This document shows positions 1,882-42,302 of a DNA stretch of 42,302 nt, in pieces. The notes under the pieces were generated by a model that saw nothing but the letters and a program-made list of their open reading frames with translations, was not told where the DNA came from and searched no databases. Within the stretch, counting starts at the first letter, position 1. Every line of letters begins with the position of its first letter. Made by a program: the position numbers and the translations under genes. Source of the DNA: Bacteroidota bacterium (GTDB taxonomy: Bacteria; Bacteroidota; Bacteroidia; Bacteroidales; JAIFNL01); the NCBI GenBank assembly GCA_020047755.1, contig JAIFNL010000047.1:1-42302 (forward strand), read 5' to 3'.

Positions 1882-4800
1882 ATGTCGATATATAAATATA
1901 TAATAAGAAGTTTGCTTTTTTATTGGAAACAAAATTTAGCTGTTTTTTTTGCTATTTTGTTGAGCTCTGCAATATTGAGCGGTGCTTTGATTGTGGGCGA
2001 TTCGGTTGAGATGAGTTTGCGAAAAATTGCTACAATGCGTTTAGGTAAAGTGAGTTATGCTTTACTTTCTGGCGAAAGATTTGTTCGTTCTGAGCTGGCT
2101 ACTGCACTCGAAGCCGAAATTAAAAGCACGTGTTCGCCTATTTTGCTACTCGAAGGAATTTCTATTAATACATCTGAAAATAAGAGAGTTAATAAAACTT
2201 CAGTTTTAGGTGTCGATTCCAGCTTTTGGAAACTTTCAGCAGTAAAACCTTTTTTTATCTCTGAAAATGAGGTTATTATAAGCCAGAATTTGGCTGAAAG
2301 ACTGAAATTGAAACTAGGTGACGATTTATTGCTTAGAATGACCAATGCCTTAGTAATTCCGATAGATGCGCCTTTTGCTTCTACTAACGAATCAGAAACT
2401 GTTTTAAGCCTGAAAATCAAATATATAGCTAACAATGACCAGCTGGCACGCTTTAGTTTGAAAAATGACCAAAAAGCTCCTTTTAATGTATTTATAGATA
2501 GAGATTTTATTGCTAAAAATTTGAAAATTAGCAATTTATCGAATGCAATTTTAATTTCGGAAACTGAAAAAAGCATAGAGGAATTGAATGTTATTTTACA
2601 AAAAAAATGGACATTAGCCGATGCCGGATTATTTTTTCGAGATTTACCAAAATTTTCTGGGTACGAATTAATTTCAAACAGAATTTTTATAGATAATGTG
2701 GTATCGCAGAAGCTAGAAGAATTAGATATTCAATGTACTCAAAATTTAACTTATTTAGTTAATTCATTGTATTTCAATGATAAATCAACACCCTATTCGT
2801 TTGTGGTGGCAAGTAATGCTTTTGGCGATTTAGATACTTCCGAAATAATTGTAAACGATTGGATTGCAGAGGATTTAGGACTAGAAGTGGGCGATTCTAT
2901 TGGCTTAAATTATTTTATCATCAATCCTTTAAAAAAAATACAGGCAGCTAAAAAGCTTTTTTCGGTAAAGGCTATAATTTCTACCGATAATTATTTGATT
3001 GATAGTTTGTTAATGCCAAATTTTTCGGGAATGACCGATTCTGAAAATTGCAGAGATTGGGAAGCCGGAATTCCAATTGATTTAACCAAAATTAGGGACA
3101 AAGACGAAGCTTATTGGAAAAAATTTAGAGGTAAACCAAAGGCAGTAATCTCCTTACAATCAGGTATTAACTTGTGGAGCAATCCATTTGGAAATTTTAC
3201 TAGTTTACGCTTTAAGCAGGCTGCTGTATCAAAGTCAGAATTGGAAAATAAATTGCTTAAAACCTTATATTTTAAAGATTTTAATATTCAATTCTTTCCG
3301 GTTAGCTTTAATGGACAAAAGTCTGTTGATAATGCGGTTGATTTTGGCGAATTATTTTTGAGCCTTAGTTTTTTTGTTATTGCTGGCGCACTTTTATTGT
3401 TATTCATTATTTTAAAATTAAACACTGATTCTCGTTCACATGAAGTTGGTATTCTAAGTGCGTTGGGTTTTTCTAAATCTAAAATTTTAAAAATTTATCT
3501 TTGGGAGGCTTTAGTCATTGCTTTTTTTGCATCAATTTTGGGTAGTTTGGGAGGTATTTATTATAACAAATTATTGCTTATTGGTATCAATTCGGTTTGG
3601 TTTGATATTGTAAGAACAGATATGTTGGAAATGTATATTTTGCCAAAAACGTTGATAATTTCACTAGTTCTAAACTTTTTTATTGCATTGGTTGTTATTT
3701 ATTGGGTTATTAGCTTGAAGCTGAAAACATCGGTTGTACGACAAATTGCAGCCTTGGATTCGATTAGTAAAACTGGAAATTACTTTTGGGTAAAAGTTTT
3801 TTTCTCAATAAGCTTTATTTCAAGTATTTATCTTTTAGTTTATATTTTTGCCACCTCTTTTGAACTCAATGCTGGCTTGTTGATGCTTACAAGTGGTATA
3901 ATTTTGATTTCCTTTGTTTTAGCTTTTTATATTCTATTACTTTTTGTCTCTAAAAAAAGAGATATTACTTCTTTATCTTTTACCAATTTAATTCTTCTAA
4001 ATTTAGCTAGTAATAAAGCGCGTAGTTTGTCGGTTGTTGTTTTATTAGCTCTTGGTGCTTTTACTATTTTGGTAACGGCTTCAAATAGAAAAACTTTTTT
4101 CGACTCAGATACTAAAAATGCCTCTGGAACAGGTGGTTTTTTATTTTGGGCTGAAAATACTTTAGCTTTAGAACACGATTTAAACACTTTTATAGGCAAA
4201 AATGCCTATAATTTAAATAATTTGACCAAATACGACACCGATTTTATGCAATTTACTCTGTTAGATGGCGACGATGCCAGTTGTTTAAACTTAAATCAAG
4301 TTTCAAAGCCTGCAATTTTAGGAGTTGATGCGCGAAAACTTGCTTCTCGCTCTTCATTTTCTTTTTCTCAATCTATTTTGGGAGAGAATATTTCATGGCT
4401 TGTTTTAGACAAAGAAATGGGAAAAAATATTATTCCTGCTATTGCTGACCAAACTGTAATTACCTGGGGCTTAATGAAATCCGTTGGCGACACGTTGGCT
4501 TACTTGAACGAAGCTGGACAAGAGTTGAAATTGGTGCTTGTTGCTAGCTTGAATAGTTCTGTTTTTCAAGGACATATATTAATTTCAGATAGTCTTTTTG
4601 CTAAAAACTTTCCGGCTTCAGGTGGTTCAAAAGTGATGCTTATTGATGGAAATGAGGTTAAGAAAAATCAAATTGCTGAAGAATTAAACTCGGCTTTGGT
4701 CGATTATGGAATAGAGTTAGAGCCTACAAATCAAAGACTTGCTGAATTTAATTCCGTTACAAACACTTATCTCTCTGTTTTTATGATTTTGGGAAGCTTA

Positions 4801-5677: not shown

Positions 5678-8600
5678 ATGGAAAAAAAATTATTCAAATC
5701 GTTCAAACTTAAAGGCTTATTTTTGCTTTTTAGTTTAATGTTGAGCACTCATTTTCTTTTTGCTCAAACTATTTTTTACTCTCAAGGCGATGGCGATTTT
5801 AGCTCTTTATTTAATTGGGATACCAACCCAACTGGAGGAGCTATCGGTCCTTTAAGCACCCAACTTACTGATGGATTGAATATTTTTGTTGTTCAAGATG
5901 GGCATCATATTGTTGCCGACCAAGACCTAAATGTTAAGAAAATTCAGATTGGGCAAGGTGCTGTTCAAGCTACTTTAACTATCGGAAATAGTGCTACTGC
6001 TCGCAATTTGGTTTTGGGAGGATTGGAAATTGCTACAAACTCAGTTTTGGGTGTTAACGATTTTATAACTACCCATTTACTTACTTTGAAAGGAAATTTT
6101 GTGAACAATGGGACAGCAAATTTCAAATTTGGAAACTACAAAGTTTGCAACCTTATTTTTGATGGAACTTTTGCTGTAAGTGGTTCTAATTCACCACATT
6201 TCAACGATTTGAAATTCCTCACAGGTGCCCTAACAGCTGCTGTGAGCTTTGATATTAATGGAAACGTAGTAATAGAAAACAACGCCGATTTTAACGACGG
6301 AAATCTTACGCACACTATTGCCGGCAATTGGACTGAAAATGGTACTGGTGAGCGACTTGGCACAGGCACGATTGTTTTTGATGGCAGTAGCATACAAGCA
6401 ATTATAGGCACAGGAATTTTTCATCATCTTACCGCAAATGGCGGTAATACGCTTATTATCAATCAAAATACAACTATTAATGGTGATTTTTTACTTACCA
6501 ACAATACCATTATTAATACTGCTTACAGCCATACTTTTAAGGGAAATTTTACCGTTACCGATGGCTCTTTTATTGATGCAACCAATGGAACGTTTACGTT
6601 TGATGCCACCGCTCAAACTCAAAATTTGAATATTGGATTTACTGGCGGGCTTAGTGCTGTTTGGTTTTATAGGGTTTATTTTGATAACGGAAATGCCGCT
6701 TTTCCTAAAAATTTTAATGGCGAACTTCGCGCAAAAACGACCACTTATATTTATCCCGATGCTGTTTTGAATGGAGATATTGCCCGAAACCACGATTTGA
6801 ACGATTTACGAATCGAAGGACAATGCAATTTACTAGGCACAATTATTTTGAGAGGCGGTACTATTTATGACTATTTTCAAAATGATATTTACTTGAATAC
6901 CAATTTGATAATTCAAGGTGGTGTTTATCTGAATAACAATGATATTTTGCACTTAAATGGCGATTTTACGCTCAATTCTAATTTTTTTGTCCTTTCCGAT
7001 GGAGCTAAATTAATTGGCGACGCTTCAAAAAGTATGTTGGTAAAAGAAGCAGCTAGACTCTACATTCGCGGAGCTAACAATTTTCCTACCGGTTTTGCTT
7101 CTATCACTTTGCACGAACGCTCTTATGTACGCTACGATGCCAACATAAACCAAATTATAAAAAGTGGTATTCCGTATGGTGGTTTGGAAATGTATTATCA
7201 AACCAAAACGGCTGAAGGCAATTTGGATATAAATTATGGAGTAAGTATGTACCAAGGAACTTTTGATATGGGGAATTATACTCACACCATTGCAGGAAGT
7301 TTTGCTAACGACAATACTGCTGATGGAATTTATCTTAGCACAGGAACTGTAATTTTGGATTCACCCGATGCTGACCAATACCTTAATGCTTCCGATGGCG
7401 GCTCTTATGTATTTAATAATCTGTATTTTACAAACCCAGCACCAACTGCCGTTCGCGAAAAAAGAATTTATAAAAACATTCAAGTAAATGGCAATTTTTC
7501 GATTACAAATACTGGCGGTGATGCGATTCGATATTTGAATGTCAATATCTATGATTCTGAAATTCAGGGTAATAACGGTAGTTTTACACTTGGTTCAAAC
7601 GTTCGATTATATACAAATGGTTCCAATAGTTTTAGCAATACTGTGCAGTCTTTCGACCTTTGGGGTGGTTTGGTACAACTTGCTTCTACCTCATCAGTTT
7701 ATTTTAATCGTCATCTTTCCGACCAATATATTCCCGCTTTTGGTGCGCTTTTGGCTTACGGCAACGTCGATTTTTGGGGCGATGGAAAGAAAATTTTGCA
7801 AGGAACTTCCCTCGATATCAACGGAAATATTACACGTTCGGGTTACCTTGCTATTTTTAAAGATTCGGGAAAAAATGTAAATGTAGCCGGAAATTGGAAT
7901 TTAGGACTTGGATTTACCGAACTCACAGGAACGGTTATTTTCGATGGTGCTTACCAAGAAATTGGAACTTCTAATTTTAACCATATTACTTTTGCCGGAA
8001 CGAATATTAAAAAAATAATTGGCGATTCGTATGTGTTTGGAAATTTGACAATTAAAGGAAATTCTACTGTCGAAAACCCTGCAAGTACCATTTATATTCA
8101 AGGAAATTGGGTAGAAGAAGCCAATGCTCTTTTTAAGCAACCCACTAGTTGGACTGTTTTTAATGGAACTGTAAATCAAACAATTACTGCGCAACCTGCT
8201 TCTTATTTTGGCAATTTTAGAATCGACAAAGCTGGTGTAAATAAAACGGTTACCGCAAATTCTAATTTTGCAGTGAAACAATCTTTCGATTTTATTGATA
8301 ATAATGCTTCTTTTAATTTGAATGGAAAAGTTTTGTATTTAGGTTTGAACTGGAATTTTAGATTGGGTTGCACATTTGCAGGTGCAGGTGGAAAAATTGT
8401 GTTTAATGGAAACGATGGCGTTCAATACATTCGCAATTACAACGGCAATATTGTTTATCCAAATTTAGAATTTCAAAACAATGCTTTCAAATATTTAGAG
8501 CAAGATACTTTTTATGTAAATGGGAATTTTGTAATTGACAAATCGGTTGTAACTGCTGGTGGTTGGCATATTTATGTGTCGGGAAATTGGCAAAATACAG

Positions 8601-11600
8601 GAACTTTTCAACACTCAGGGCATGTAATTTTGACGGGAGCCGACCAAACCATCGGAACGTCGCAATTTTATAATTTGTACATTGATGGTTCTGGAACAAA
8701 AACCTTGGCTGGAAATATTCAACTCAACGGGTCGCTCGAAATTAGAAACAATGTTACTTTAGATATTTCCCCCAATAATTACACCATCTCGTTGCAAGGA
8801 AATTGGCAAAACGATAGTACTGGTTCGTTTGTGGCGCGGCAAGGAACGGTTGTTTTTGTTGGAAATTCATCGATTGTTTGGACTGGAAAAGGCAATAAAG
8901 TTTATGGAACAAGCCTTCTCTTTTTGCCACCTAAAGCAGGTTTGAAAGATTTTTACAACCTCGAAGTTTCTCAAATTTCGGGTGCTGGACTTAGATTAAG
9001 AGGCGATTTGAGGGTCGAAAATAATTTTATTATCAACTCTGGAACTCTTTGGCAGTCAGAAAATCCGATTAATTTTGGAGTGAACGATATTTCGGTAGGA
9101 GGCGATTTTGTAAACGAACAATATTATGGTTATGCCTATGAACCTGGTATTTTGTTTTTGAATGCCACAACCGGAACTAAACGTTTCAAACCTGGAATTA
9201 ACAGTTACGGACACGTAACTATTAACGCCGATGCTTCGGTTAAGTACATATTGGAAAGTAATTTTTACATGGAAAATAATTTCGATTTTCAATTAAATAA
9301 TGCTACTTTCGATTTGAATCATTACGAAATGCGTATGTGGGGAGCGTCGGGTTTTGTTAATTTGAACAGTGGAACGTTTGAAATTAATTCAGGCGCAATT
9401 TTGCGAATTTATTCTGGTTCGCGAATTAATAACAACGGAGCGACTTTCAAATTAGTGGGAAATGAAACTACACCGGCCACGCTTTCTATTTCTACCACAG
9501 GAAATTACGATTTTGTTCAAACAGCAGGAGTGTTTCATGCTAAGTATTTTAGAGTCGAAAGTACTCGTAATGCCGGAATTGATATTCAAGGAGGAAGTAT
9601 TGACCCAGTCAATAATTTTTCGGAAGGTACATTTACTTCGGGCATTGGAACATCGTATATTTGTTTGAATGGATTGGATTTGGGTGCTGGAATTACTCCT
9701 ATAAATACCGGTTTTAATATTGGAACTACCAACAACGTAGCCCGAACTTCAGGTACGGGAATTGTTAATTTTCAAAATGCAACTGGCTCGCTTGCTGGCG
9801 AAAATTACGACAATGACCCTGTGAATATTGTAAACTGGACTTACCCGGGAGTTTACTCTTGGACGGGTGCAGGCGATGGTACAAACTGGGACGATGGCGC
9901 AAACTGGGCAAGTGGCACGGTGCCAACTTCGAGCTCGAATGTTATTCTCGACCATTCTGCCGTTGGCTCAGCTTATACTGTTCGCATTCAAAATGCCAAT
10001 GCTGTTGTGAATCGGCTTACGCTCGACATTCAGGCTGGAGCGGCAATTAGTTTGGTGCTCGATTCTAAAGAGCTGACTATCAAAGAGAATCTGACTGTTA
10101 ATGCCGGTGCAACACTTCAACAAACTCAATCTACCGACACTATTAGAATAGGTGGAAATTGGTCAAATAATGGAACTTTTTTATCAGGAACAGCTACTGT
10201 TGTATTCAATCCGCTTAGCGGAACTAAAAATATAATTAATTCAGTTTCGAGTCCATTTTACAATCTAAAAGTGAAAACCGAAGGTGCTGTTTTGGCATTG
10301 GCTTCAAACATCGAAATTAATAACGATTTAGAATTAGCCAAAGGCGTTTTTGATGCTTCGGCTGCTTACAATATTTATGTGCGTGGAAATTGGCTCATGC
10401 GTGGAGGCTCTTTTAATGCACGCACTTCGGTGGTTTATTTCGACAAAGGAGGCAATTCAACTCAAATTATAGAAGGTGGTGCTTTTCATAGTATAATCAT
10501 TAGCAATAAGTTAGCTTCAGGAACAGCCATCAAACAAATTGCTTCAAACATTTCTATCGAGAACGATTTGACCATTCAAGCCAATTCCGTTTTTGATGGC
10601 GGACAGTACATCGTTTACCTGAAAGATGATTTGCTCAACTACGTGGGAGATGCCGGTTTTGTTCAAACAGGAAGCGGAACATTGGTTTTGAGCGGAGGCG
10701 ACCAACTTTTTACAACTACTGGAGTTTCTACTACCATCAATCATTTAATTTGTGCCGGAACGGGTAGAAAAGAAGTGCGCACGAACTTAAATGTAAACGG
10801 AGATATTAGCATAACTACTGGTAGTTTAGATATTTACGATGGATTTTTTGTTACTGGAATGGGTACAAACTCGCTTATTCAAACAGGTTCGTACATTTAC
10901 GTTCGTGGTGCAGCTAATTTTCCACAAGGTTTTGAAAACATTGCTTTGAATAACGGTTATGTTTATTATTATGCCGATGTGCCTCAAACTATTTATCCTA
11001 CAATCTATTATAGTTTACTTTTTGGAAGACCCACTGTGGGAGTTATTGCCGATAAAATTGTTACTAACAATTTGGTTATCAATGGAGGTTTGACACTTTA
11101 TGACCAAACTTTCCTTCGTGTAAACAATTATACCATTACATTAAAGGGAGGAATTGATTTTTATCCTTTGGCAAAACAAATCGAATGGGGCGCAAACGGA
11201 ACTTTAATTCACAATGGTGGCGATTGGGCGATTGATGGAGATATTACTTCGTTCAATAATTTATTTTTTACCGGAACCGGAACAAAAAGTTTCTGGTATC
11301 GAAGCATGAAAATTACCGGCGACTTGACAGTAGATAATGAATGTGGAATACAACAGCATGACACTGTTAAAGTTACATGCACATCGCCCAACAAAACTTT
11401 TTCGCTTATCGGGCAAGCTTATTATTACGTTTATACCAATAATCTTTATAGCAAAGCCTTTGCTTTGGGTTTCACGTACTACAATCTCGACAAGCAATCG
11501 CGCGTATATTTGCGTGGAAATGCAAACCAAACCATTTTCACAACACCCGTTTATGGCAATTTGTATCTTTATACCACTAAAATTATTACTCAAACGCTTG

Positions 11601-14600
11601 ATGGAAATTTAAAAGTAGAGAATGATTTTTTGATGAGTTACAACGAATTGACCTTGAACGATGCCGGTTTTAATATTTCGGTAGGACGCAATTTTGAACA
11701 CCGAAATTACATTCCTTCACCAAACACAACCTTCACCTTTCATGGCGAAAACCAATCTATTTACGATTATAGAACTGGAAACGTAGATTTGATATTTGAA
11801 AACTTGGTTTTTTCGGGTTCGGGAATCAAAACCATTCGCGATGGAGGCGATTTTATTGTCGTAAATAAAAACCTTACAATTGCCGAAAATGTAGAAGTTT
11901 TCACAGACAGAGTTTACACCATGAAAGGGCAAGCTTGGACTGACAATGGCAAATTTAATCAAACCTCAAATTGGGTTGAATTTACCTCAAATTCACCTCA
12001 AACCATCGAGCCTTCGCAAATACATCAGTTTTATGGAATGAAATTTTCAGGCACAGGGCTTAAAACCGTTCAAGAATACGGCTTAAATTCGTACAATGGA
12101 GTGTTTGAAATTGCGGTTGGAAGCACTTTGCAGCTTGGTAATTTAACGCATCGCTTGGCTACCATTCGCCCGCTGATTAATGGAACTTGGATTACCAATA
12201 ATGCCAATTTTGTTTTGTATAGAGCTGAAACACAATATATTCCGGCTTTAACTTGCAATAATATTACTTTCGGAAATGGAGATATAAACATTAGAAACAG
12301 ATATTTAGAAGGAAATTTAGTTTGCAACGATTTGTTGATAGAAGACAAAGCACAACTGGTTGCTTCTATCGACAATTTAACCACATCGCCCAAATATTCA
12401 ATTACTTTGTCGGGAAATTGGACAGACTTGGGGCGTTTTTATGCTTACGGAAATACCGTTAATTTTGAAAGCAACAACACCGATGCAAAAACAATTAAGT
12501 TGAGCCAATACGGTTATTTTTTCAATTTGAATTTCAATCAATCAAACACCAATGCACGCAACTACACCGTAAATGGCGAAATGCGTGTGCTCGAAGTATT
12601 GAGAATTGGCAACGGAGCAAGTGTAAATATGGCAGGACAAAATTTATATTTGGGCGACGATGACACAAATGCGCCTGCTGCCGAACAACATTTTATTGAT
12701 GTGGGAGGAGAATTAAAACTTAGCGCAGCCGGAAGTTTGCTTTTCAATACCGACGACGCTGGAAATCCAAAACTTACCGTAAATGGAACGCTCGAATTGA
12801 TTGGCTCGGTAGGTAATTATGTGAATATCAATAAAAATGGAGGAGGAAATTACATTGATATTTTGATTTCCAATTTAGGTAAAATCAAAGCTAAATATTA
12901 TCATTTTCAATATATTAGCCCAAATGGTTTTGAAGTAATGAATGGTGCAACTATTGACCCTGTAAACAATTTTTCGGAAGGAACGTGGTCTAATATGCAC
13001 CCAAATGCAAGTTTGGGAAAATGCTATTATTTAAAAATCAATAACGATGTTAGCACTTTGCCCGCAATTGAAAATGTAACCTTCAATTTTAATGGAACTC
13101 CTACATCTGCAATACATTACAACGTTTTTCGTAGTTCAAGTGCCACCGGAGTTTTGACCTTTGCTGGTGATATTAACGGTGTGTTGGGTGGGAAAATTTA
13201 CGAAGATGATGCCTTTGAAATTAGCAATGGTGCACCCGGAAAAATTGTGTGGCCCCCCATTTCGGCTGTTGCTTGGAATGGTTCGGTTAGCATCGACTGG
13301 TTCAACCCAAACAACTGGACTCCAGCTATTGTGCCCGATATTTCTATTCAAGCTACCATTCCTATTCAGGCAAATAATCCGGTAATTTACAATGCCAATG
13401 CAGCTTGCAAAGACCTTATTATTTCCAACGGCTTTCTTACGCTCGACGAAGCCAAATCGCTTAGAATTGCCAACAGCGTTACCATTGGAAATGCTGCCGA
13501 AGTTGCTATTTTGAGCGTTAATAATCCACTTTGCAACATCGAAGTGGGTGGAGATTGGAACAGAGGCGCAAATGCCGTTTTTAATCACGGAAACGGAACC
13601 GTTCGATTTACCAAAGAAATTGGTTCGAATGTTATAAGTCCAAGAAATTCACCATTTTACAATGTTATTTTTGTGGGTGGTGCTACTTATTATTGGTCTG
13701 GAGCAGAAACTTTTGTGCATGGAAATTTTATTCTTTCTGCCGGAATTTTTAGCCCAAGTACCGATTGGTATTTGCTGCATCTTCGTGGAAATTACAACAA
13801 TACCGGAGGACAATATTTTTTCAATCGTGCCGGAACTTTAATTCTCGATGGTAGCAATCAAGACATTACAAAAGGTACTTTCAATCGACTCGAAGTTTCG
13901 GGTTCTGGAATCAAAACCTTTAGCGACTCGCTTTATTTGAATTTGTCGAACGGACTTTTGACCGTAAAATCAACCATGAAAGCAGCCCCAAATTGTACTA
14001 TGGACATTAATAGTTCCGATGTAATAATCGAAAATACAGGCACTTTCGACGATGGCAACGAAACACACTATTTTGGCGGTTATCGCTGGTACGGAAATGG
14101 GAATTATGCCGGAAATGGAACTATTGTTTTTGATAGACCCGATTGGCAATATATTTATAGCGGAACGTTTTACAATTTAACTTTTGAGCAAAACTGGAGA
14201 GCTTTAGGTGGAAATATCTCGGTATTAAATAATTTTTACAACAAAGGTTACTTCCAAACACAAACCTTTTTGATGACAAACCCAACCGGAAATGGTATTT
14301 TTACCTTAACCGACAATTCCAGAGTGTATGTACTTGGCGCAAATAATCACCCTACTGGTTTTGGCTCATATCAAATTTCGCCCATAAGCAATTCTTATTA
14401 CGAAGGCTATTTGAATCAGACCATCAAGGGAAATATTCCTTATGGAAATTTGAATCTTTCGCATGGAACAAAAAGCTTAGGCGGAGATGTGGACATCAAC
14501 GGACAGCTTTATTTGTATTCCGATGCTATTTTTGATGTTAGCACAAACAATTACAAAATTAACATTTCGGGAGCTTGGAACAATAGCGTGGGCGGCGAAT

Positions 14601-17600
14601 TTGTTTGCCGACAAGGTGAAGTGGTGCTAGACGGAACCACAAGCCGCGATATTACTTTGAAAGAAGGCGCAAAAAATGATTTTTACAAACTTACAGTAAA
14701 TCTAACAAATCCAACTACTTACTGGAGAGTTCTTTATGCCGATATTTCTATCAAAGACAATTTGCGTGTTTTGGGTGGGCGTTTTAGTGCATACAATCGA
14801 ATTATTGACGTTTATGGCGATATGACTGCAATAGGCGGAACATTCACTACCGAAGGCACTTACCGATTAGTAAAACCTAGCGGAACTGCAAGCATTAAAA
14901 TGAACGGCTCTATTTTGAATAACTTATACATCAGTTCATCAGCAACTTACACACTTCAAGACGATTTAGCGTTGAATGGAAATTTCATGCTTACTTCGGC
15001 TACTTTTGATGCCAACGGAAAGCAAGTTCGTTTAGGCTACGATTACGATATTATTTCTATCTCAGGAACTTACAAAATGGGAGTTGGAGGAAGACTTTCC
15101 ATTGGAAACGGTTCTACTTTAACCGTAAATAATGGCGGAATTTTTTATGCCGTGGGAGCTGAAAACCAACCTGCAATAGTTACAAATTATGGCGGACGAT
15201 ACAATTTTTCGGTCGAAAGTGGCGGTACAATTCATGCCAAATATCATTGGTTTGAATTTATGAATACCGGAGGAATTTATGTCAAACAAGGCGCTTTGAT
15301 TGACAATACAAACAATTTTAGTTACGGCGTTTTTACAAATTGCCCTAGTGGTGGTTATGCTTTGAGAATAGAAAATAATCAAAGCTTTACCGAGGCTCTT
15401 GGCAATCGAATTGTCGATCTTTCCTTTCCGGTAAACCCTTCCAATGGTGCTGCAAACGTTGCTAAATTTGAAAATACTTCTGGAATTATCGAAATTTATC
15501 ATTCTGTCGGCTCTTTCTCGGGCGAAACTTTCGATTACGACCCTCAAAACCTTATTATTTGGACTGGCGAAACCGTACTTACTTGGGTGGGAACCATCAA
15601 CTCTAACTGGCACAATGCCGCAAACTGGCGTGCAAGCATAGGAGCTGACATTGTTCCTACACGCAACGAAGATGTGGTAATTGCAGATGCTACAAATCAG
15701 CCAATTATCTCTCAATCAAAAGCTTATGCCAAAAGCATAGTGATGAATCCAAACACGTATTTAACCCTCAATATTCAAAATGCCGCCGATACTTCGCTTC
15801 AAATAATGAAAGATTTGGTTATCAAAGGCAATTTGATTATGCAATCCGACAAAGACATTCTTACCGTAGGCGGAAACTGGATAAATACCGGAACTTTTTC
15901 TGGTGGCGAAGGCTTAGTTATCTTCAAACCACAGCAAAATTTAATTACGGTTGATAACTATACAAGTATGTTTTCTAATTTAGCAATCGATGGAATTGGG
16001 ACAGTTTCCTTGAATAGAAATGCCATTGTAAGCAATAATTTGGAAATTAGAAACGGAATTTTTGATGTAACAACCAATAATTATACGCTTGCCGTAGGTG
16101 GCGATTTTCTAAATTTGGCTACTTTCAATCCTCGCGCAGGGCGTTTGACTCTCAACTCAACCAGAGTGGGCGACGTAGTATTTAACCCAGGAAATGCTAT
16201 TTATAACTACATCGACATCGAAGCCGGAAATGCTTCTGTTTATAAATTGACAACTTCCGATTTGAGAATGACTCGTAGCATGAATATTAATTCGGGTATT
16301 TTCGATTTGAATAAAAAAACATTTTTCTTTGGCGATGCAATTAGTACCGACATTATTACGGTTGTTGGTATTTTAAAAATATCTGGAGGTTCTTCTCTTA
16401 AAATGGCAAATACATCGAAAATGATAGTTGCCAATGGAGGACAGTTGAATTTAGTTGGCGAAGAAAATCTTTACTCAACTATAAACAACCAAGGTACTGG
16501 TTATTATGGAGTTGAAATTAACTCGGGAGGTTTGTTAAGTGCTAAGTATTACAACATTTCCAATATCAATGGAATTGGAATTTGGTTAAAATCAGGCTCT
16601 TTGCTCAATGCTACCCACAATTTATCGTTCGGAAATTTCTTATATTGCGAAACAAACGGACGTTATTTGCTCATGGAAAACGATTTGCCTTTAAATACTC
16701 AAATTCAATTTGTCGATTTCGGACAAGGTGCGAAATACAATGTAAAAAGACCATCGGGAGCAAACTTTGTTACTTTTGTCGATGCTTTTGGCTTGCGTGG
16801 TGGATATTTATTTGAAGAAGATGATTTTTCGGCAAATTTAGGCAATGTTCGTTGGGAATTTACCGATCCAACGCTTTTTTGGACTGGAAATGTAGATGAA
16901 AAATGGGACGATTTGAACAACTGGGACGATGGAGCAGGAGGAACCGGTGTGCCAAATCATTTAACACGTGTTTTTATTCCAAATGTAACTGCCACAACCG
17001 GTAATTATCCGATAATAAATCAATCGAATGCAACTACTCGGAGCGTTACAATTTACACAGGAGGTCGCTTAGAACTTCAAGCAAATTTGAGCCTTAGAAT
17101 TGCAGAAAATTTTGAAAACTCTGGAAATTTCTCAATTCAAAATACCTCACTTTCTACCGTAGAAGTTGGAAAACAATGGGTTTGCACCGGAACTTTTAGC
17201 TCGGGAACTAATTCGACCGTTATTTTTCAAGCTTTGTCGGGAGCTGTGAGCATTACAACCAACGGGCAGCCATTCAACAATGTCTCTTTTACAACAGCAA
17301 GCAATGCCGAATACAAAACCGTTGATGCTTTCACTGCCAAAAAGAATTTTGAAATAATGCAAGGTTCCTTTACCGTAACCAACTCGGCGCATACAATAAC
17401 CGTGGGAAGCAACTGGAACAACCAAGCCACATACAATCATGGAAATGCCGATTTAGTTTTTAATGGAAACAACAATCAGAACATTACAAACACAGGAACT
17501 GGACGATTTTTCAACGTCTTTTTTGCAGGCAGTGGAACCAAAACTTTGTATTCAGATATTTATGTTGAAGGCAACTTAGAAATTTTGAGCACGCTCAATG

Positions 17601-19969
17601 CTAAAAATAAAACCATTCGATTGCTCAAAAACTGGAAAAACTCTGGAACTTTCATTCCCGAAACAAGTACTATTATGTTATTAGGCTCTGAAATGCAACT
17701 CGTTGAAAAACTTTCGGGCGAAACATTTTACAATTTAACTATCAATAATACAGCTAGTTCGGTGCCGCAGGTTTTATTTAATGGAAATGTTCTTGTAAAA
17801 AATGGAACTTTTGCTTTGATAGATGGAGTAGTGGAAACGAGCTCTTCCAACTTGCTAACCTTGGAAAATGCTTCTCTTTCAGGTGGCACAACCACAGCTA
17901 GTTACATCACTGGACCTATGCGCAAAATAGGAAGTGCCAATTTTGTTTTCCCTATCGGAAAAGGCAGTAAATTTGCACCTATTGCCATTTCGGGAATGAT
18001 TAGTTCGGCTTCGTTTACTGCCGAATATTTTGAAGCTTCGCCCGTAAACACAGGCGCAGTAACTGGCGCATTAACCCACGTGAGCGGAAAAGAACATTGG
18101 TTTTTGAACCGCGAAAGTGGAACCGGAGAGCCGCAAGTTACTCTTTATTGGAACAACGGACCAAACAGCGGAATTGATAATCTCGACGAACTCACTGTGG
18201 CAGCCTACAATGGCTCGGTTTGGAATGAATTTGGAAGCTCCATTATAGGTTCGCTTTTAAGCGGAGCAGTGCGTTCCATTTCGCCCGCAACTTATTTCGG
18301 ATATTTCACATTTGGCTCATTAAGTGCCGATTACAACCCATTTAGTAGCGGAACGCAATGGTTGGGAAGCATTTCGTCTGCTTGGGAAATATTGGCAAAT
18401 TGGAGCAATGGAATACCCAACCAATTAAACAATGCTACAATTACGGCAGCTCCTATTAATCAGCCTGTTATATCGAGTGCCGCCGTTTGCAAAAGCTTGA
18501 CTATTCATACAGGAGCCAAACTTGTTGTTACCGAAGGATACTCACTTACAGCACATTCAGGAACTTACAACAACGGAGAGCTTTTACTGAAATCGCCTAT
18601 AAATTCAGGCGCAGCAGCCTCTTTTATCGACAATGGAACTGTAGAAGGTGCCGGACAATACATTATCGAACGTTTCTTCTCGCGAGACGAATGGCATTAT
18701 CTTTCAACGCCTGTAAATTACGGAAATGCAAGTAGTTATCTGTTTACAAATCCTTTTGGAACAAGCTTTTATAATTCAAATTTCATCACTTACAACGAAC
18801 CAAGTTCCTCTAATAGTTGGATGAACGGTTGGGTTAAAGGCTATACAAACGAAACAACGCCCAAAAATCTCGAAATAATGAAAGGCTATGCGTTCATTTC
18901 AAACCAATACCACAACATTCTTTTTGCAGGAACTTTCAACACAGGAGAGCAAACTCGACTTACAACTTACACCAACGGAACCGAAATTGCGGCGCACGAA
19001 GGCTGGAATTTGGTCGGAAATCCTTATCCTTCGGCAATAGACTGGAATGCAGCAGGTTGGGATAAACAAAATATCGACAACACCATTTATTTCTGGGATG
19101 GCAACAATTACTCATATTATGTAGGAACTGGCGGTTCGGCGGGCGTTGGTATCAATAATGGCACAAATATAATTCCGGCTATGCAAGGTTTTATGGTGAA
19201 AGCCTCTAACAACGGGCATTTGAGAGTAAATAACTTGGCAAGAACTCATAATAATTCCGTTATTTATTATAAATCTGGCAACAACGATGAATTTTTGAAA
19301 CTTTCGTGCCAAAACCAAAATACAAAAGACGAATTGATTGTTCGCTTCAACGATGAGGCTAGTAATGAGTACGATGGCGGTTTTGATGCCTATAAATTGT
19401 TTGCAGATAAAGAAGGAGTGCCCCAAATTTTTACGTATTCCAAATCGGGCGAAACAAAATTAGCCATAAATACATTGACCAATATTGCTGATAATTACCA
19501 TGTTGCAATGGATTTCAACTCGCTAACTGCTGGTCAATATACCATTGATGCCGACCAAATTTCGATTGATTTAAAATATCCTGTTCTTTTGGAAGATTTG
19601 CTCGAAAACAAATTAACAGACTTGCGCAAAGATGGTTCATATACATTTAGTTACGACCCTAGCATTGCAAAAACTCCTCGTTTTGTTATCCATTTTACTA
19701 CCGATTTAGAAGATGATGGTTTTGATGAGGAAAATTTGGCACAAATACAAGTAAGTGCTTTTAAAAACAATGTTACAGTCAAATTATCAAACACTTACGA
19801 TTTTTCGGGTAAAATTGAAATTGTAGATATGCTGGGTAAGGTTTTAATTACCAAAATGATAGACCAAAATGTTACCGAATTCAATTTAGAGGCTGCAAAT
19901 GGAGTGTATATTGTAAAAGTGCAATCGAATGAAAAAACAATTTCAAAACGAGTTTTAATACAGGAATAA
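5678..19969 (+). CDS. Giant T9SS-sorted surface protein with nested beta-strand repeats
   Basis: The ATG at 5678 gives 4763 residues and is chosen because it begins a clean signal peptide (basic MEKKLFKSFKLK, hydrophobic core, then THFLFAQ at 24-30). The GTG at 5582 would bury that signal behind 32 extra residues. Most of the protein is rich in Asn, Gly, Thr and Phe and consists of about 70-residue units of the form GNW-x-NxGTF-x-GxGTVVFNG-x-Q-x-FYNL-x-GxGTKTL-x-VNGNL. At least fourteen unit cores of the GNW kind can be picked out. The units are grouped into five modules. Residues about 4228-4688 resemble the conserved tail of Bacteroidota secreted proteins (GWNLVGNPYPSAIDW at 4442). Residues 4689-4763 form a type A T9SS sorting domain ending ANGVYIVKVQ...KRVLIQE. 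It should be exported by Sec, moved by T9SS and anchored or released at the surface. An adhesin, coat or motility role is possible but unproven. Confidence 0.9.
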   Translation: MEKKLFKSFKLKGLFLLFSLMLSTHFLFAQTIFYSQGDGDFSSLFNWDTNPTGGAIGPLSTQLTDGLNIFVVQDGHHIVADQDLNVKKIQIGQGAVQATLTIGNSATARNLVLGGLEIATNSVLGVNDFITTHLLTLKGNFVNNGTANFKFGNYKVCNLIFDGTFAVSGSNSPHFNDLKFLTGALTAAVSFDINGNVVIENNADFNDGNLTHTIAGNWTENGTGERLGTGTIVFDGSSIQAIIGTGIFHHLTANGGNTLIINQNTTINGDFLLTNNTIINTAYSHTFKGNFTVTDGSFIDATNGTFTFDATAQTQNLNIGFTGGLSAVWFYRVYFDNGNAAFPKNFNGELRAKTTTYIYPDAVLNGDIARNHDLNDLRIEGQCNLLGTIILRGGTIYDYFQNDIYLNTNLIIQGGVYLNNNDILHLNGDFTLNSNFFVLSDGAKLIGDASKSMLVKEAARLYIRGANNFPTGFASITLHERSYVRYDANINQIIKSGIPYGGLEMYYQTKTAEGNLDINYGVSMYQGTFDMGNYTHTIAGSFANDNTADGIYLSTGTVILDSPDADQYLNASDGGSYVFNNLYFTNPAPTAVREKRIYKNIQVNGNFSITNTGGDAIRYLNVNIYDSEIQGNNGSFTLGSNVRLYTNGSNSFSNTVQSFDLWGGLVQLASTSSVYFNRHLSDQYIPAFGALLAYGNVDFWGDGKKILQGTSLDINGNITRSGYLAIFKDSGKNVNVAGNWNLGLGFTELTGTVIFDGAYQEIGTSNFNHITFAGTNIKKIIGDSYVFGNLTIKGNSTVENPASTIYIQGNWVEEANALFKQPTSWTVFNGTVNQTITAQPASYFGNFRIDKAGVNKTVTANSNFAVKQSFDFIDNNASFNLNGKVLYLGLNWNFRLGCTFAGAGGKIVFNGNDGVQYIRNYNGNIVYPNLEFQNNAFKYLEQDTFYVNGNFVIDKSVVTAGGWHIYVSGNWQNTGTFQHSGHVILTGADQTIGTSQFYNLYIDGSGTKTLAGNIQLNGSLEIRNNVTLDISPNNYTISLQGNWQNDSTGSFVARQGTVVFVGNSSIVWTGKGNKVYGTSLLFLPPKAGLKDFYNLEVSQISGAGLRLRGDLRVENNFIINSGTLWQSENPINFGVNDISVGGDFVNEQYYGYAYEPGILFLNATTGTKRFKPGINSYGHVTINADASVKYILESNFYMENNFDFQLNNATFDLNHYEMRMWGASGFVNLNSGTFEINSGAILRIYSGSRINNNGATFKLVGNETTPATLSISTTGNYDFVQTAGVFHAKYFRVESTRNAGIDIQGGSIDPVNNFSEGTFTSGIGTSYICLNGLDLGAGITPINTGFNIGTTNNVARTSGTGIVNFQNATGSLAGENYDNDPVNIVNWTYPGVYSWTGAGDGTNWDDGANWASGTVPTSSSNVILDHSAVGSAYTVRIQNANAVVNRLTLDIQAGAAISLVLDSKELTIKENLTVNAGATLQQTQSTDTIRIGGNWSNNGTFLSGTATVVFNPLSGTKNIINSVSSPFYNLKVKTEGAVLALASNIEINNDLELAKGVFDASAAYNIYVRGNWLMRGGSFNARTSVVYFDKGGNSTQIIEGGAFHSIIISNKLASGTAIKQIASNISIENDLTIQANSVFDGGQYIVYLKDDLLNYVGDAGFVQTGSGTLVLSGGDQLFTTTGVSTTINHLICAGTGRKEVRTNLNVNGDISITTGSLDIYDGFFVTGMGTNSLIQTGSYIYVRGAANFPQGFENIALNNGYVYYYADVPQTIYPTIYYSLLFGRPTVGVIADKIVTNNLVINGGLTLYDQTFLRVNNYTITLKGGIDFYPLAKQIEWGANGTLIHNGGDWAIDGDITSFNNLFFTGTGTKSFWYRSMKITGDLTVDNECGIQQHDTVKVTCTSPNKTFSLIGQAYYYVYTNNLYSKAFALGFTYYNLDKQSRVYLRGNANQTIFTTPVYGNLYLYTTKIITQTLDGNLKVENDFLMSYNELTLNDAGFNISVGRNFEHRNYIPSPNTTFTFHGENQSIYDYRTGNVDLIFENLVFSGSGIKTIRDGGDFIVVNKNLTIAENVEVFTDRVYTMKGQAWTDNGKFNQTSNWVEFTSNSPQTIEPSQIHQFYGMKFSGTGLKTVQEYGLNSYNGVFEIAVGSTLQLGNLTHRLATIRPLINGTWITNNANFVLYRAETQYIPALTCNNITFGNGDINIRNRYLEGNLVCNDLLIEDKAQLVASIDNLTTSPKYSITLSGNWTDLGRFYAYGNTVNFESNNTDAKTIKLSQYGYFFNLNFNQSNTNARNYTVNGEMRVLEVLRIGNGASVNMAGQNLYLGDDDTNAPAAEQHFIDVGGELKLSAAGSLLFNTDDAGNPKLTVNGTLELIGSVGNYVNINKNGGGNYIDILISNLGKIKAKYYHFQYISPNGFEVMNGATIDPVNNFSEGTWSNMHPNASLGKCYYLKINNDVSTLPAIENVTFNFNGTPTSAIHYNVFRSSSATGVLTFAGDINGVLGGKIYEDDAFEISNGAPGKIVWPPISAVAWNGSVSIDWFNPNNWTPAIVPDISIQATIPIQANNPVIYNANAACKDLIISNGFLTLDEAKSLRIANSVTIGNAAEVAILSVNNPLCNIEVGGDWNRGANAVFNHGNGTVRFTKEIGSNVISPRNSPFYNVIFVGGATYYWSGAETFVHGNFILSAGIFSPSTDWYLLHLRGNYNNTGGQYFFNRAGTLILDGSNQDITKGTFNRLEVSGSGIKTFSDSLYLNLSNGLLTVKSTMKAAPNCTMDINSSDVIIENTGTFDDGNETHYFGGYRWYGNGNYAGNGTIVFDRPDWQYIYSGTFYNLTFEQNWRALGGNISVLNNFYNKGYFQTQTFLMTNPTGNGIFTLTDNSRVYVLGANNHPTGFGSYQISPISNSYYEGYLNQTIKGNIPYGNLNLSHGTKSLGGDVDINGQLYLYSDAIFDVSTNNYKINISGAWNNSVGGEFVCRQGEVVLDGTTSRDITLKEGAKNDFYKLTVNLTNPTTYWRVLYADISIKDNLRVLGGRFSAYNRIIDVYGDMTAIGGTFTTEGTYRLVKPSGTASIKMNGSILNNLYISSSATYTLQDDLALNGNFMLTSATFDANGKQVRLGYDYDIISISGTYKMGVGGRLSIGNGSTLTVNNGGIFYAVGAENQPAIVTNYGGRYNFSVESGGTIHAKYHWFEFMNTGGIYVKQGALIDNTNNFSYGVFTNCPSGGYALRIENNQSFTEALGNRIVDLSFPVNPSNGAANVAKFENTSGIIEIYHSVGSFSGETFDYDPQNLIIWTGETVLTWVGTINSNWHNAANWRASIGADIVPTRNEDVVIADATNQPIISQSKAYAKSIVMNPNTYLTLNIQNAADTSLQIMKDLVIKGNLIMQSDKDILTVGGNWINTGTFSGGEGLVIFKPQQNLITVDNYTSMFSNLAIDGIGTVSLNRNAIVSNNLEIRNGIFDVTTNNYTLAVGGDFLNLATFNPRAGRLTLNSTRVGDVVFNPGNAIYNYIDIEAGNASVYKLTTSDLRMTRSMNINSGIFDLNKKTFFFGDAISTDIITVVGILKISGGSSLKMANTSKMIVANGGQLNLVGEENLYSTINNQGTGYYGVEINSGGLLSAKYYNISNINGIGIWLKSGSLLNATHNLSFGNFLYCETNGRYLLMENDLPLNTQIQFVDFGQGAKYNVKRPSGANFVTFVDAFGLRGGYLFEEDDFSANLGNVRWEFTDPTLFWTGNVDEKWDDLNNWDDGAGGTGVPNHLTRVFIPNVTATTGNYPIINQSNATTRSVTIYTGGRLELQANLSLRIAENFENSGNFSIQNTSLSTVEVGKQWVCTGTFSSGTNSTVIFQALSGAVSITTNGQPFNNVSFTTASNAEYKTVDAFTAKKNFEIMQGSFTVTNSAHTITVGSNWNNQATYNHGNADLVFNGNNNQNITNTGTGRFFNVFFAGSGTKTLYSDIYVEGNLEILSTLNAKNKTIRLLKNWKNSGTFIPETSTIMLLGSEMQLVEKLSGETFYNLTINNTASSVPQVLFNGNVLVKNGTFALIDGVVETSSSNLLTLENASLSGGTTTASYITGPMRKIGSANFVFPIGKGSKFAPIAISGMISSASFTAEYFEASPVNTGAVTGALTHVSGKEHWFLNRESGTGEPQVTLYWNNGPNSGIDNLDELTVAAYNGSVWNEFGSSIIGSLLSGAVRSISPATYFGYFTFGSLSADYNPFSSGTQWLGSISSAWEILANWSNGIPNQLNNATITAAPINQPVISSAAVCKSLTIHTGAKLVVTEGYSLTAHSGTYNNGELLLKSPINSGAAASFIDNGTVEGAGQYIIERFFSRDEWHYLSTPVNYGNASSYLFTNPFGTSFYNSNFITYNEPSSSNSWMNGWVKGYTNETTPKNLEIMKGYAFISNQYHNILFAGTFNTGEQTRLTTYTNGTEIAAHEGWNLVGNPYPSAIDWNAAGWDKQNIDNTIYFWDGNNYSYYVGTGGSAGVGINNGTNIIPAMQGFMVKASNNGHLRVNNLARTHNNSVIYYKSGNNDEFLKLSCQNQNTKDELIVRFNDEASNEYDGGFDAYKLFADKEGVPQIFTYSKSGETKLAINTLTNIADNYHVAMDFNSLTAGQYTIDADQISIDLKYPVLLEDLLENKLTDLRKDGSYTFSYDPSIAKTPRFVIHFTTDLEDDGFDEENLAQIQVSAFKNNVTVKLSNTYDFSGKIEIVDMLGKVLITKMIDQNVTEFNLEAANGVYIVKVQSNEKTISKRVLIQE
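5771..9853 (+). repeat. Giant protein module 1 (about 1361 residues)
   Basis: The module opens with the N-terminal cap (FYSQGDGDFSSLFNWDTNP, residues 33-51), a variant of the W-x-G...NW cap. It continues with strand repeats whose GNW cores lie near 6323, 7889, 8102, 8582 and 8799. It ends in a closing segment that starts AKYF at residue 1288 (base 9539), runs through SIDPVNNFSEGTF and ends GSLAGENYDNDPVNIVNW just before the next cap. It is the longest module. Repeat units are well diverged from each other, so this is an old expansion. Confidence 0.75.
9854..13270 (+). repeat. Giant protein module 2 (about 1139 residues)
   Basis: The cap is WTGAGDGTNWDDGANW with Trp1395 as its first Trp. GNW cores lie near 10154, 10384 and 12412, with less regular units between. 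The closing segment starts AKYY at residue 2405 (base 12890) and repeats the motif IDPVNNFSEGTW almost exactly as in module 1. It ends GVLGGKIYEDDAFEI and IVWP before the third cap. The distance from AKY to the next cap Trp is 128 residues. Confidence 0.75.
13271..15580 (+). repeat. Giant protein module 3 (about 770 residues)
   Basis: The cap is WNGSVSIDWFNPNNW with Trp2533 first. Unit cores include GDWNRG near 13551, GNYNNTG near 13786 and GAWNNS near 14569. The closing segment begins AKYHWF at residue 3187 (base 15236), contains IDNTNNFSYGVF and ends GSFSGETFDYDPQNLIIW. AKY-to-cap distance is 116 residues. Confidence 0.75.
15581..16876 (+). repeat. Giant protein module 4 (about 432 residues)
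   Basis: The cap is WVGTINSNWHNAANW with Trp3303 first. It holds only a few units, with a GNWINTGTF core near 15872. The closing segment begins AKYYNI at residue 3622 (base 16541), with LLNATHNLSFGNF in place of IDPVNNFSEGTF, and ends GLRGGYLFEEDDF. AKY-to-cap distance is 113 residues. It is the most compact complete example of cap, units and closing segment, and so the best reference for defining the module. Confidence 0.75.
16877..18355 (+). repeat. Giant protein module 5 (about 493 residues), no closing segment
   Basis: The cap is WTGNVDEKWDDLNNW with Trp3735 first. Unit cores are SNWNNQA near 17407 and KNWKNSG near 17627. The AKY closing segment is absent. Instead the module runs into YITGPMRKIGSANFVFPIGKGS and KEHWFLNRESG, a pattern seen near the C-terminal end of many Bacteroidota secreted proteins. 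A sixth cap (WLGSISSAWEILANW, Trp4228) then starts the C-terminal region. Confidence 0.7.
19742..19966 (+). other. Type A T9SS C-terminal sorting domain of the giant protein
   Basis: Residues 4689-4763 form an Ig-like domain of about 75 residues with the usual order of motifs: VSAFKNNVTVKLS, then SGKIEIVDMLGKVL, then FNLEAANGVYIVKVQ and a basic end KRVLIQE. In characterised T9SS cargo this domain is recognised by the translocon and removed at the surface. Its position at the extreme end shows the gene is complete at the 3' side. Confidence 0.9.
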
Positions 19970-24630: not shown

Positions 24631-26187
24631 TTATAAAACTTGTCGAACGCAGTCAATCACAGTTCCATCTACCCATTTTATGGCTGCAATTACTTTTTCT
24701 CCAAGCTTAGGAAGCGCAGGTTTTCCACAAATTGCTTCTGCTTCTTCTTTTAATTCTTGAATTGTTTTGAGCGGCAAGCCTGAATTTTGGGCTTTTTCAA
24801 TCAAATCGGTGCGAAGCGGGTTTATTGCAATTCCGCGCTCGGTAATGATTACGTCTATCAATTCGCCCGGACCACAAAGTGTTGTAACTTCCTCACGGAC
24901 AACTGGAATTCTATCTCTAAACAGAGGAATTGGCAGAATAACGGTTTTAGAAAACAAGCAATTTTGCCAGCCGCCGATTCCATGGAGCATATAACCATCG
25001 GAATGTGTTACTACGTTGGCATTGAAATTTACATCTACTTCGGTTGCTCCAAGTATCACTACATCAACTAATTGAGCGAAGTTTCCTTTTCCATGATAAT
25101 TGTAGCTTGTAAATGGGCTTGTCCACACATGGTTGGCATTATCGCGCATCGAACGAACTCCATCTAAATCAAATGTTTGACCATCTAAAATATATTCAAT
25201 TAAGCCTTCTTCGAGCATATCTACTAAATATTTATTACTTCCTCCACGTGCAAAGCGTGCTTTTATGCCCTTTTCGCGCATAATTTTGGCAAAATAATCA
25301 CTTACTGCCAGCGAAGTTCCACCCGCACCGCTTTGAAAACTAAACCCGTCTTTTATTATTCCCGTTACATCACAAAATTTGGCAGTCAATTCGGCAAGAT
25401 ACAATCGGTCTGGACTTTTTGTAATTTCAGTGGTTCCCGAAACTATTTTTTCTGGGATACCTATTTTATCCATAACAACCACAAAATCAACATAATTTCC
25501 TTGAATTTGCCAAGGAATACATGGAAATTGAACAAAATTATCTGTTACAACTATCACTTTTTCAGCATATTGCGAATCTGCTAGCGCAAAGCCAAGCAAG
25601 CCACTGGTCGAAACACCATTTACACCGTTTGCATTTCCAAAACAATCTGACGACGATGCGCCAATTACGGCAATGTCTATTTTCACTTCACCATCTTGAA
25701 CTGCTTGATATCTACCGCCATGCGAACGCAAAATTGCGGTTCCTTGCATTTTGCCTTGCGATGCGTATTTGCCCAAAATTCCGTTCATACTTCCTTCGAT
25801 GTGGCTTATTGTGCCGTCTTCCAAATACTTAAGTACTGGTTCGTGGCAAGGAAATGAAGCTGACGGGAACCAGCGAAGATTTTTAATTCCAAGTTCGTGT
25901 GCAACATCAAATATCTGATTAGCAATCAAATCGCCATTTCTAAAGTGGTGGTGAGTAGAGATGGTCATACCATCTTTTAACCCCGATTTTATAAGAGCTT
26001 CTTTCAGCGAAGCCACTTGCTTGTTGCCATCTTGCGGGAAATTTGCTATGCTCTGAATTGTTGGAGCATGCTTTTTGCCTTGCGGTATATATTTTCCAAT
26101 TCCCTGATACGGAACATGGTTTTCGCCATTTATTACGGTAGGAACAAGTCGTCCTGCTGCATTTTTTACAAAATTTGAACTAGACAT
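24631..26187 (-). CDS. citF: Citrate lyase alpha subunit (citrate CoA-transferase)
   Basis: This 518-residue protein matches CitF in length and along its whole span: GRLVPTVINGENHVPYQG near the start, HHHFRNGD, GAGGTSLAVSDYF, then CGPGELIDVIITERGIAINPLR near the end. CitF exchanges acetyl on the acyl carrier protein for citrate; CitE then cleaves citryl-ACP to oxaloacetate, and CitD is the carrier. No citC, citD, citE, citX or citG lies beside it, and terminators lie on both sides. Either the partners are elsewhere, or the protein acts as a stand-alone CoA-transferase of this fold on another substrate. The family call is firm; the reaction in this cell is less so. Confidence 0.9.
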   Translation of the reverse strand: MSSSNFVKNAAGRLVPTVINGENHVPYQGIGKYIPQGKKHAPTIQSIANFPQDGNKQVASLKEALIKSGLKDGMTISTHHHFRNGDLIANQIFDVAHELGIKNLRWFPSASFPCHEPVLKYLEDGTISHIEGSMNGILGKYASQGKMQGTAILRSHGGRYQAVQDGEVKIDIAVIGASSSDCFGNANGVNGVSTSGLLGFALADSQYAEKVIVVTDNFVQFPCIPWQIQGNYVDFVVVMDKIGIPEKIVSGTTEITKSPDRLYLAELTAKFCDVTGIIKDGFSFQSGAGGTSLAVSDYFAKIMREKGIKARFARGGSNKYLVDMLEEGLIEYILDGQTFDLDGVRSMRDNANHVWTSPFTSYNYHGKGNFAQLVDVVILGATEVDVNFNANVVTHSDGYMLHGIGGWQNCLFSKTVILPIPLFRDRIPVVREEVTTLCGPGELIDVIITERGIAINPLRTDLIEKAQNSGLPLKTIQELKEEAEAICGKPALPKLGEKVIAAIKWVDGTVIDCVRQVL

Positions 26188-41085: not shown

Positions 41086-41107
41086 TTCATTATAATTAAG
41101 ATTTGAT

Positions 41108-42302
41108 ATGTATAAATTTATAGCAACTTTTTTGTTTTTAATAATTTATTTTTATAGCTTTTCGCAAGAAAATATTTATTTGCGTGATGATTTTACATCG
41201 AATAGGTTCAAATGGAATTTGCAGGAAACCAATGATTTAATTACAAAAATAGAGAATGGAAATTTGTTGATTGTGAACAAAACCAAGGAATCAAAATCTG
41301 TTCGTTTTGTCCAAGATATGTTTATGTATAACGATAGTGATTTTTTTATTGAAACAAGGATAGAGTTACAATCTACTGAAAAAGAACAATATGGAGGTCT
41401 AATTTGGCACAGTCTAGATGAAAATAATGGTTTTTACTTTGAAGTTTCAAACAAAGGCAAAGCTAGAGTTTGGGCAAATAGAGAGGGAGGTGTTTTTAAT
41501 TTATTATACTGGACTGAATTTCAAGAGCTTATTGGAAATAAAACGTTTGTATTAAAAATAGATAGGAAAGGCAACTTTATGAATCTTTATGTGAATGATG
41601 TTTTGGTTTATCCTTCAAAATATAGGGGCTTATTTGCTTATCAAATAGGCTTTATAGCTGGTAGTGAAACTAGCTTATCTGTTGATTATTTGTTGGTTAA
41701 GCACCCAAAAGTAGATATTTCGGATAAAAAAATAGCTGATAGAATAAACAAAAAAGATTTGTATTGGATTTTGAATGAAGAGATGACCTTTAAGGCTAAA
41801 ATTGTAGGTGATGTTCGCAATGAATTTACAAATGAGATAGTTGAAAATGTAAGTGTTAATTTAGTTGATTCTGATGGGAATTTGATTGATATTGAAAATA
41901 AAAATACAAAGCATGGTTTTTTTGAATTTGATGTAGCTGAAAAAAAACAATTTTTTTTGAAGATTCGTGCTAAAAATTATATAACTCAATCTCTTTTGAT
42001 TGATATGAATATAGATGAAAATTTTGTAGAAATTACCAAAAATATTCTTTTGAGTCCTGTTGAATTAGGAAAAATAATACAGCTCGAAAATGTTCTTTTT
42101 GAGCGGGGACAGGATGTTTTATTGCAAAGTTCGTATAAAGAGTTGGATAAATTGGTAGAATTTATGACGGAAAACCCAAAAATTGAGATAGAATTGAGTG
42201 GACATACCGATAATTCTGGAAATGCAGCCTTGAATTTGGAACTTTCGGAAAAAAGGGTGTTAAAAGTGAAACAATACTTGGTTGAAAAAGGAATTGTGGA
42301 GG
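41108..42302 (+). CDS. Second OmpA-family paralogue, cut by the window end
   Basis: Translation from the ATG at 41108 is open to the last base (398 full codons). It starts with a signal peptide MYKFIATFLFLIIYFYSFSQ. The domains match the preceding protein in order: LRDDFTSNRFKWN, GGLIWHSLDENNGFYFEVSN, a middle region with KIADRINKKDLYWILNEE, a regulatory-like beta domain, then OmpA with VLFERGQDVLLQSS, SGHTDNSG and ELSEKRVLKVKQYLVEKG. Only the last part of the OmpA domain, expected to be about 35 residues including the RRV motif, is missing, because of the window edge. It is a tandem duplicate, well diverged, of the gene 22 bp upstream. Confidence 0.9.
   Translation, partial: MYKFIATFLFLIIYFYSFSQENIYLRDDFTSNRFKWNLQETNDLITKIENGNLLIVNKTKESKSVRFVQDMFMYNDSDFFIETRIELQSTEKEQYGGLIWHSLDENNGFYFEVSNKGKARVWANREGGVFNLLYWTEFQELIGNKTFVLKIDRKGNFMNLYVNDVLVYPSKYRGLFAYQIGFIAGSETSLSVDYLLVKHPKVDISDKKIADRINKKDLYWILNEEMTFKAKIVGDVRNEFTNEIVENVSVNLVDSDGNLIDIENKNTKHGFFEFDVAEKKQFFLKIRAKNYITQSLLIDMNIDENFVEITKNILLSPVELGKIIQLENVLFERGQDVLLQSSYKELDKLVEFMTENPKIEIELSGHTDNSGNAALNLELSEKRVLKVKQYLVEKGIVE

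Follow-up and report, generated by a model that had tools for sequence, protein, structure and literature searches.

A giant predicted T9SS type A cargo with nested repeat modules, from an unnamed phylum-spanning family with nearly frozen length and module order

The giant gene, its export signals and its surroundings

The window (the whole 42,302-nucleotide stretch of DNA that was analysed) carries at 5678-19969, on the forward strand, one open frame of 4,763 residues with zero internal stops, as the initial annotation had proposed. The following features were distinguished along it.

5678..5767, + strand: signal-peptide-like N-terminus, residues 1-30 (MEKKLFKSF...FLFAQ), hydrophobic
5768..9859, + strand: module 1, residues 31-1394; NW-type cap at the N-terminus, then about 12 short units and a closing domain at about 1215-1394
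9860..13273, + strand: module 2, residues 1395-2532; WTGAGDGTNWDDGANW cap followed by about 11 units and a closing domain at about 2330-2532
13274..15583, + strand: module 3, residues 2533-3302; WNGSVSIDWFNPNNW cap followed by 6 significant units and a closing domain at about 3110-3302
15584..16879, + strand: module 4, residues 3303-3734; WVGTINSNWHNAANW cap followed by 2 significant units and a closing domain at about 3545-3734
16880..18358, + strand: module 5, residues 3735-4227; WTGNVDEKWDDLNNW cap, 3 units, distinct C-terminal part (GPMRK...FPIGKG); less conserved
18359..19768, + strand: variable linker region, residues 4228-4697, with the sixth cap (WLGSISSAWEILANW) at residue 4228
19769..19969, + strand: T9SS type A sorting domain, residues 4698-4763, and stop codon; TIGR04183, 6.2e-9

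Both ends of the protein carry the export signals that had been claimed for it. Based on inspection and hydropathy, the hydrophobic N-terminus ending in ...FLFAQ is predicted to be a Sec signal peptide, and a hydrophobic N-terminal stretch was also present in 34 of the 36 full-length homologues, while two Flammeovirga open frames lacking it may be mis-started. At the other end, the NCBIfam search matched the tail to TIGR04183 with 35.7 bits (cut-off 23), and Pfam added a sub-threshold match to the same tail. All 22 family members scanned had a type A tail match. The predicted fold of this C-terminal domain (CTD) resembled those of RemA, NucA and RemZ, resolved in T9SS complexes, and that of mirolase (Z 9.6-10.6), superposing on the RemA and mirolase domains with Z of 10.5-10.6 and rmsd of 1.6-1.8. 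The T9SS translocon SprA was encoded in the host genome (G000:C194; 2,596 bits) and was found in 12 of 12 carrier genomes that were at least 90% complete. Overall, these results support the protein as a T9SS type A cargo, predicted to be exported and anchored at the surface through its CTD.

Concerning SprA itself, the family match in genome G138 (C7:260525-263974) lay inside a 6,523-residue open frame, compared with about 2,400-2,500 residues elsewhere, and this frame may represent a fusion or an unusual protein.

From about residue 4475 onwards, the C-terminal part of the giant protein resembled other T9SS proteins of the host genome, where a genome search detected no full second copy. A sequence search of the PDB returned one match, a leucine-rich repeat at E 0.19, attributed to chance. 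The GC content was 37-39% across the gene, against about 27-33% in most of the window; as the conserved neighbour at 24631-26187 was also GC-rich (0.40), the raised GC may reflect protein composition rather than transfer.

The genes around the locus did not form a conserved operon: recurring neighbours were found within close relatives only, and the neighbourhood differed between clades, so that it gives no hint of function. In one genome of the same genus (G001), neither the gene nor its flanking genes were found, so this genome offers no empty site for comparison. In Reichenbachiella (L107:16724-22867), Fulvivirga (L111:16311-20030) and Ekhidna (L095:4307-7432), the next gene encoded a large secreted protein starting with GPGGVG..., alike among the three. 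Elsewhere in the window (39781-42302), two adjacent similar genes were present, the first secreted and bearing a C-terminal OmpA-like region, and the second running off the end.

Repeat anatomy and predicted fold

Repeats nested at two levels, as initially annotated, were recovered at both scales. At the upper level, module-versus-module BLASTP gave E-values down to 1e-33 (module 1 against module 3, over 401 residues), with caps aligning to caps, including the sixth at residue 4228. At the lower level, a short-unit profile of 77 positions found 34 stretches at E<=1e-7, compared with a best value of 2e-4 in the reversed protein, which is a fair control for a profile trained on this family. The units are therefore real, at about 72-78 residues instead of the 70 or so first given. 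They are strongly diverged, and the autocorrelation of the raw sequence was weak for this reason and a poor detector here.

The initial description of five modules, each opened by a W-x-G cap, applied to modules 2-5, which open with W-x-G...W...NW; module 1 opens with an NW cap without W-x-G, and the cap at residue 4228 is a sixth. Modules 1-4 share a closing domain of ~190 residues (...NFSxGTF...GxFxGExFDxDPxNLIxW), and module 3 is the most conserved of the modules. Residues 4228-4697 were common to other T9SS proteins of the host genome and weakly conserved in the family.

Among the giant protein and the relatives scanned, no Pfam or NCBIfam model covered the modules; both databases recognised the tail only, in agreement with the first impression of an unfamiliar architecture. 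Pfam matches of the giant protein to FixG_C and Amnionless were below cut-off. The caps at residues 1401-1428 and 3299-3379 (window 9878-9961 and 15572-15814) weakly resembled the N-terminal beta-helix of animal Amnionless, a likeness resting on two weak independent hints (Pfam, E 0.08; VIA, Z 4.2 over 73 residues). The G8 domain (PF10162) had no Pfam match in the giant protein and, among relatives, was matched weakly in 2 of 43 and in 1 of 22.

The AlphaFold2 model of residues 2341-3460 (module 3 and its flanks), for which the input included 43 family sequences, was all-beta, with a mean pLDDT of 91.5, a pTM of 0.58 and about 24 residues per three strands. It aligned by VIA-align to right-handed parallel beta-helices with Z of 12-16. 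As Foldseek gave zero matches at E<=0.001 with this model, the assignment rests on the VIA-align Z and the secondary structure. The modelling thus supports a module 3 folded as a right-handed parallel beta-helix, a fold whose coils run to about 20-25 residues, in line with the beta-solenoid first suggested. Model confidence fell at the module joints, and the cap-like breaks placed at residues 2533 and 3303 appeared as lower-confidence joints with small helices. A second model, of residues 3601-4763, had pLDDT <50 over most of model residues 725-937 and was unreliable over about 725-1000; only its module 5 and CTD parts were good enough to be used.

Adhesins were among the best VIA matches, including Fap2 (Z 15.3), the HMW1 secretion domain (15.2), Ag43 (13.4), Hap (12.9) and EtpA (11.1), with lyases and tailspikes ranking beside them (PL6 alginate lyases, Z 15.9; HK620 tailspike). 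A modelled beta-helix of this type can also be an enzyme, since alginate lyases and depolymerases rank as high, and carbohydrate activity is common among beta-helices. An extracellular beta-helix enzyme that degrades or binds polysaccharides nevertheless seems unlikely: in module 3, the residues that never vary are mainly Gly, Trp, Asn, Phe, Tyr and Pro, which is what a structural role would predict, no Pfam or NCBIfam enzyme model matched, and about 34 tandem units without one conserved special region suit a scaffold better. The analysis revealed neither a ligand nor a partner nor an enzyme motif for the giant protein.

Distribution of the family and constraint on length and order

In a search of 60 relatives of the same order, five other genomes proved to encode full-length colinear homologues, with 36-89% identity over about 2,770 residues. 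One of them (G027) held two full-length copies (C280:37703-52525 and C82:3980-17329), 63% identical to each other and the only duplicate seen. A genome scan using an alignment of module 3 yielded 75 loci, of which about 44 encoded this architecture, either complete or truncated where a contig ended; many of them aligned as a single HSP of >4,000 residues. Recruitment relied on module 3 similarity, and relatives further removed have architectures of other kinds; both points limit the length comparison given below. Of 392 genomes sampled across the phylum, 14 matched module 3 at E<=1e-20, the window's own included, and 8 of these 14 encoded a full-length or near full-length giant protein.

The family was distributed over Bacteroidales, Cytophagales-type bacteria and Chloroherpeton. 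Named carriers included Breznakibacter xylanolyticus DSM 6779, Reichenbachiella versicolor DC003, Flammeovirga aprica and Flammeovirga sp. SJP92, alongside many MAGs, a good number of them from rumen or sediment. The homologue of genome G064, which we take to be Chloroherpeton thalassium, was 3,968 residues long, with much of module 5 missing. MAG species labels in these records are unreliable; those labelled Draconibacterium orientale (L051, L058, L065, L100) carried quite different versions of the family, so the label is wrong for some. Viral or plasmid origin was considered and set aside, as two limited tests found no relative of module 3 on viral contigs and no near match of window 9857-14000 on plasmids. 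No paper on this giant protein was found in the open-access literature. The analysis supports the initial annotation on the object and its likely class, and the colinear conservation in dozens of species goes beyond what could be seen from the window.

Long surface repeat proteins usually gain and lose repeats fast. Here, about 3,500 repeat residues keep their order and length between bacteria about one third identical in this protein. Across 36 full-length proteins, the core (residues 201-3735) measured 3,584 +/- 69 residues at a median pairwise identity of 35%, so that the length of the 3,535-residue reference core was kept within 1.9% (s.d.); the lengths of the individual modules varied by 1.6-3.3% (s.d./mean). 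Between residues 200 and 4200 of the full-length sequences, there was essentially no indel of at least 25 residues, with two exceptions: three relatives have one further unit, about 100 residues long, at 3956, and Chloroherpeton has its deletions. Where indels are listed for truncated sequences, they are artefacts of the sequence ends. Whole units were almost never gained or lost in the family.

In phylogenetic trees, the closing domains of modules 1-4 formed four clades by position, each holding 44-48 of 46-50 members with SH-like support of 0.85-0.99. This clustering by position indicates that the modules diverged before the family radiated. The cap trees agreed less clearly with module position, above all for module 4. 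Compared with a close relative (G002), dN/dS was 0.072 for the whole gene and 0.055-0.077 per module, absolute values being approximate with dS near 1. The same ratio was 0.21 for the upstream ABC permease and 0.067 for the neighbouring peptidase, placing selection on the giant protein at the strength of that on the peptidase.

The control was a sister family of T9SS-type proteins, 2,649-2,659 residues long, from Chitinophaga and its relatives (L091, L094, L098, L099, L105, L108, L109). Its length was near-constant among relatives 62-85% identical, and units of the GNW...GTVVFNG type recur in numerous other T9SS-type proteins, as would be the case if the giant protein were an ordinary, freely evolving repeat adhesin with similar lengths owing to short divergence. 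This explanation is disfavoured and very improbable, as the length of the giant protein is constant at 35% median identity whereas two members of the Chitinophaga family, with identities of about 50% or below, already depart by -16% and +40%, and as both the dN/dS of 0.07 and the positional clustering of the closing domains speak against it. The giant protein is thus a constrained protein of fixed length, probably a rod, and not a fast-changing repeat adhesin.

Proposed role and comparison with known systems

The reading that we consider probable is a T9SS-exported, surface-anchored rod of about 80 nm acting as an adhesive or structural filament. The protein would leave the cytoplasm by its signal peptide and then cross the outer membrane via the T9SS using the type A CTD, and the type A cargo studied so far suggests, by analogy, anchoring at the C-terminus. 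A series of five beta-helix modules would keep the N-terminus well away from the cell, the rod reaching roughly 80 nm if fully stacked (about 4,200 residues, about 24 per coil, 0.48 nm per coil). Such a filament of fixed length, neither phase- nor length-variable, would hold cells to surfaces or to each other. Anchoring, rod length, extension and the adhesive or structural function are what we infer from these features. The fixed-length role is likely because reach and module order are under selection; the modules may extend in a single line, though the model has a pTM of 0.58 and weaker confidence at the joints.

Alternatively, the giant protein could be a gliding adhesin doing the job of SprB in Flavobacterium, that is, a long surface filament moved by the T9SS/gliding motor. 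SprB is likewise a huge T9SS-exported filament (6,497 aa; PMC9870892), the CTD of the giant protein folds much like that of RemA, which is a mobile lectin of F. johnsoniae gliding, and the cultured carriers with a motility record glide. Chloroherpeton thalassium glides, unlike Chlorobiaceae (PMC9318685), Reichenbachiella versicolor is recorded as positive for gliding (PMC10752948, Table 1), and Breznakibacter xylanolyticus, formerly Cytophaga xylanolytica, is called an 'anaerobic gliding bacterium' in the title of a reference. Gliding is common in the phylum, however, which makes a few cultured carriers weak evidence, and MAGs from rumen or sediment, with motility unrecorded, account for many of the carriers. 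Two possible tests were discarded. Co-occurrence with gldD cannot discriminate, this gene being nearly universal (55 of 60 order relatives, carriers and non-carriers alike). Chlorobiaceae were of no use as a non-gliding contrast, since the 8 tested all lacked SprA and hence the T9SS, making absence of the gene from them uninformative. SprB carries a type B CTD and depends on a PorP-like partner, whereas the giant protein has a type A tail and no PorP-like gene was seen adjoining it among the window's open reading frames, judged by eye. A role in gliding of this kind therefore appears doubtful.

Returning to the surface-anchored rod, a costly and constrained giant protein probably has a defined job. 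One tentative suggestion, to which we give a low probability, is that this protein is an undescribed, anciently fixed filament spanning the phylum and serving as a dedicated machine part of the Bacteroidota envelope, such as a gliding filament where SprB is missing or a set-length spacer from cell to cell or from cell to surface, its length itself being selected. The novelty lies in the constraint and not in the size: in an unnamed family spanning the phylum, length and module order are nearly frozen. The culturable carriers (Breznakibacter, Reichenbachiella, Flammeovirga aprica and, by our assignment, Chloroherpeton thalassium) make the job directly testable.

Among known systems, the G8 domain and the Amnionless N-terminal beta-helix show a weak sequence and fold likeness to the W-x-G...NW caps, with matches that are weak or limited to few members; they belong to animal proteins with a single such region. 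SprB of Flavobacterium johnsoniae (6,497 aa) is also a very large T9SS-exported surface protein, presumably filamentous; it differs from the giant protein, which has a type A tail and is not known to act in motility. HMW1, EtpA, Ag43 and Fap2 of Proteobacteria and Fusobacteria share the beta-helix fold and, likely, the extended rod, but differ in their type V export, their identity of 9-12% and their lack of nested modules with caps and closing domains. The T9SS type A cargo proteins RemA, RgpB and mirolase have the same signal-peptide-like N-terminus and type A CTD, with a matching fold; they are lectins or proteases of ordinary size, whereas the giant protein carries, as its cargo part, about 4,100 residues of predicted beta-helix modules.
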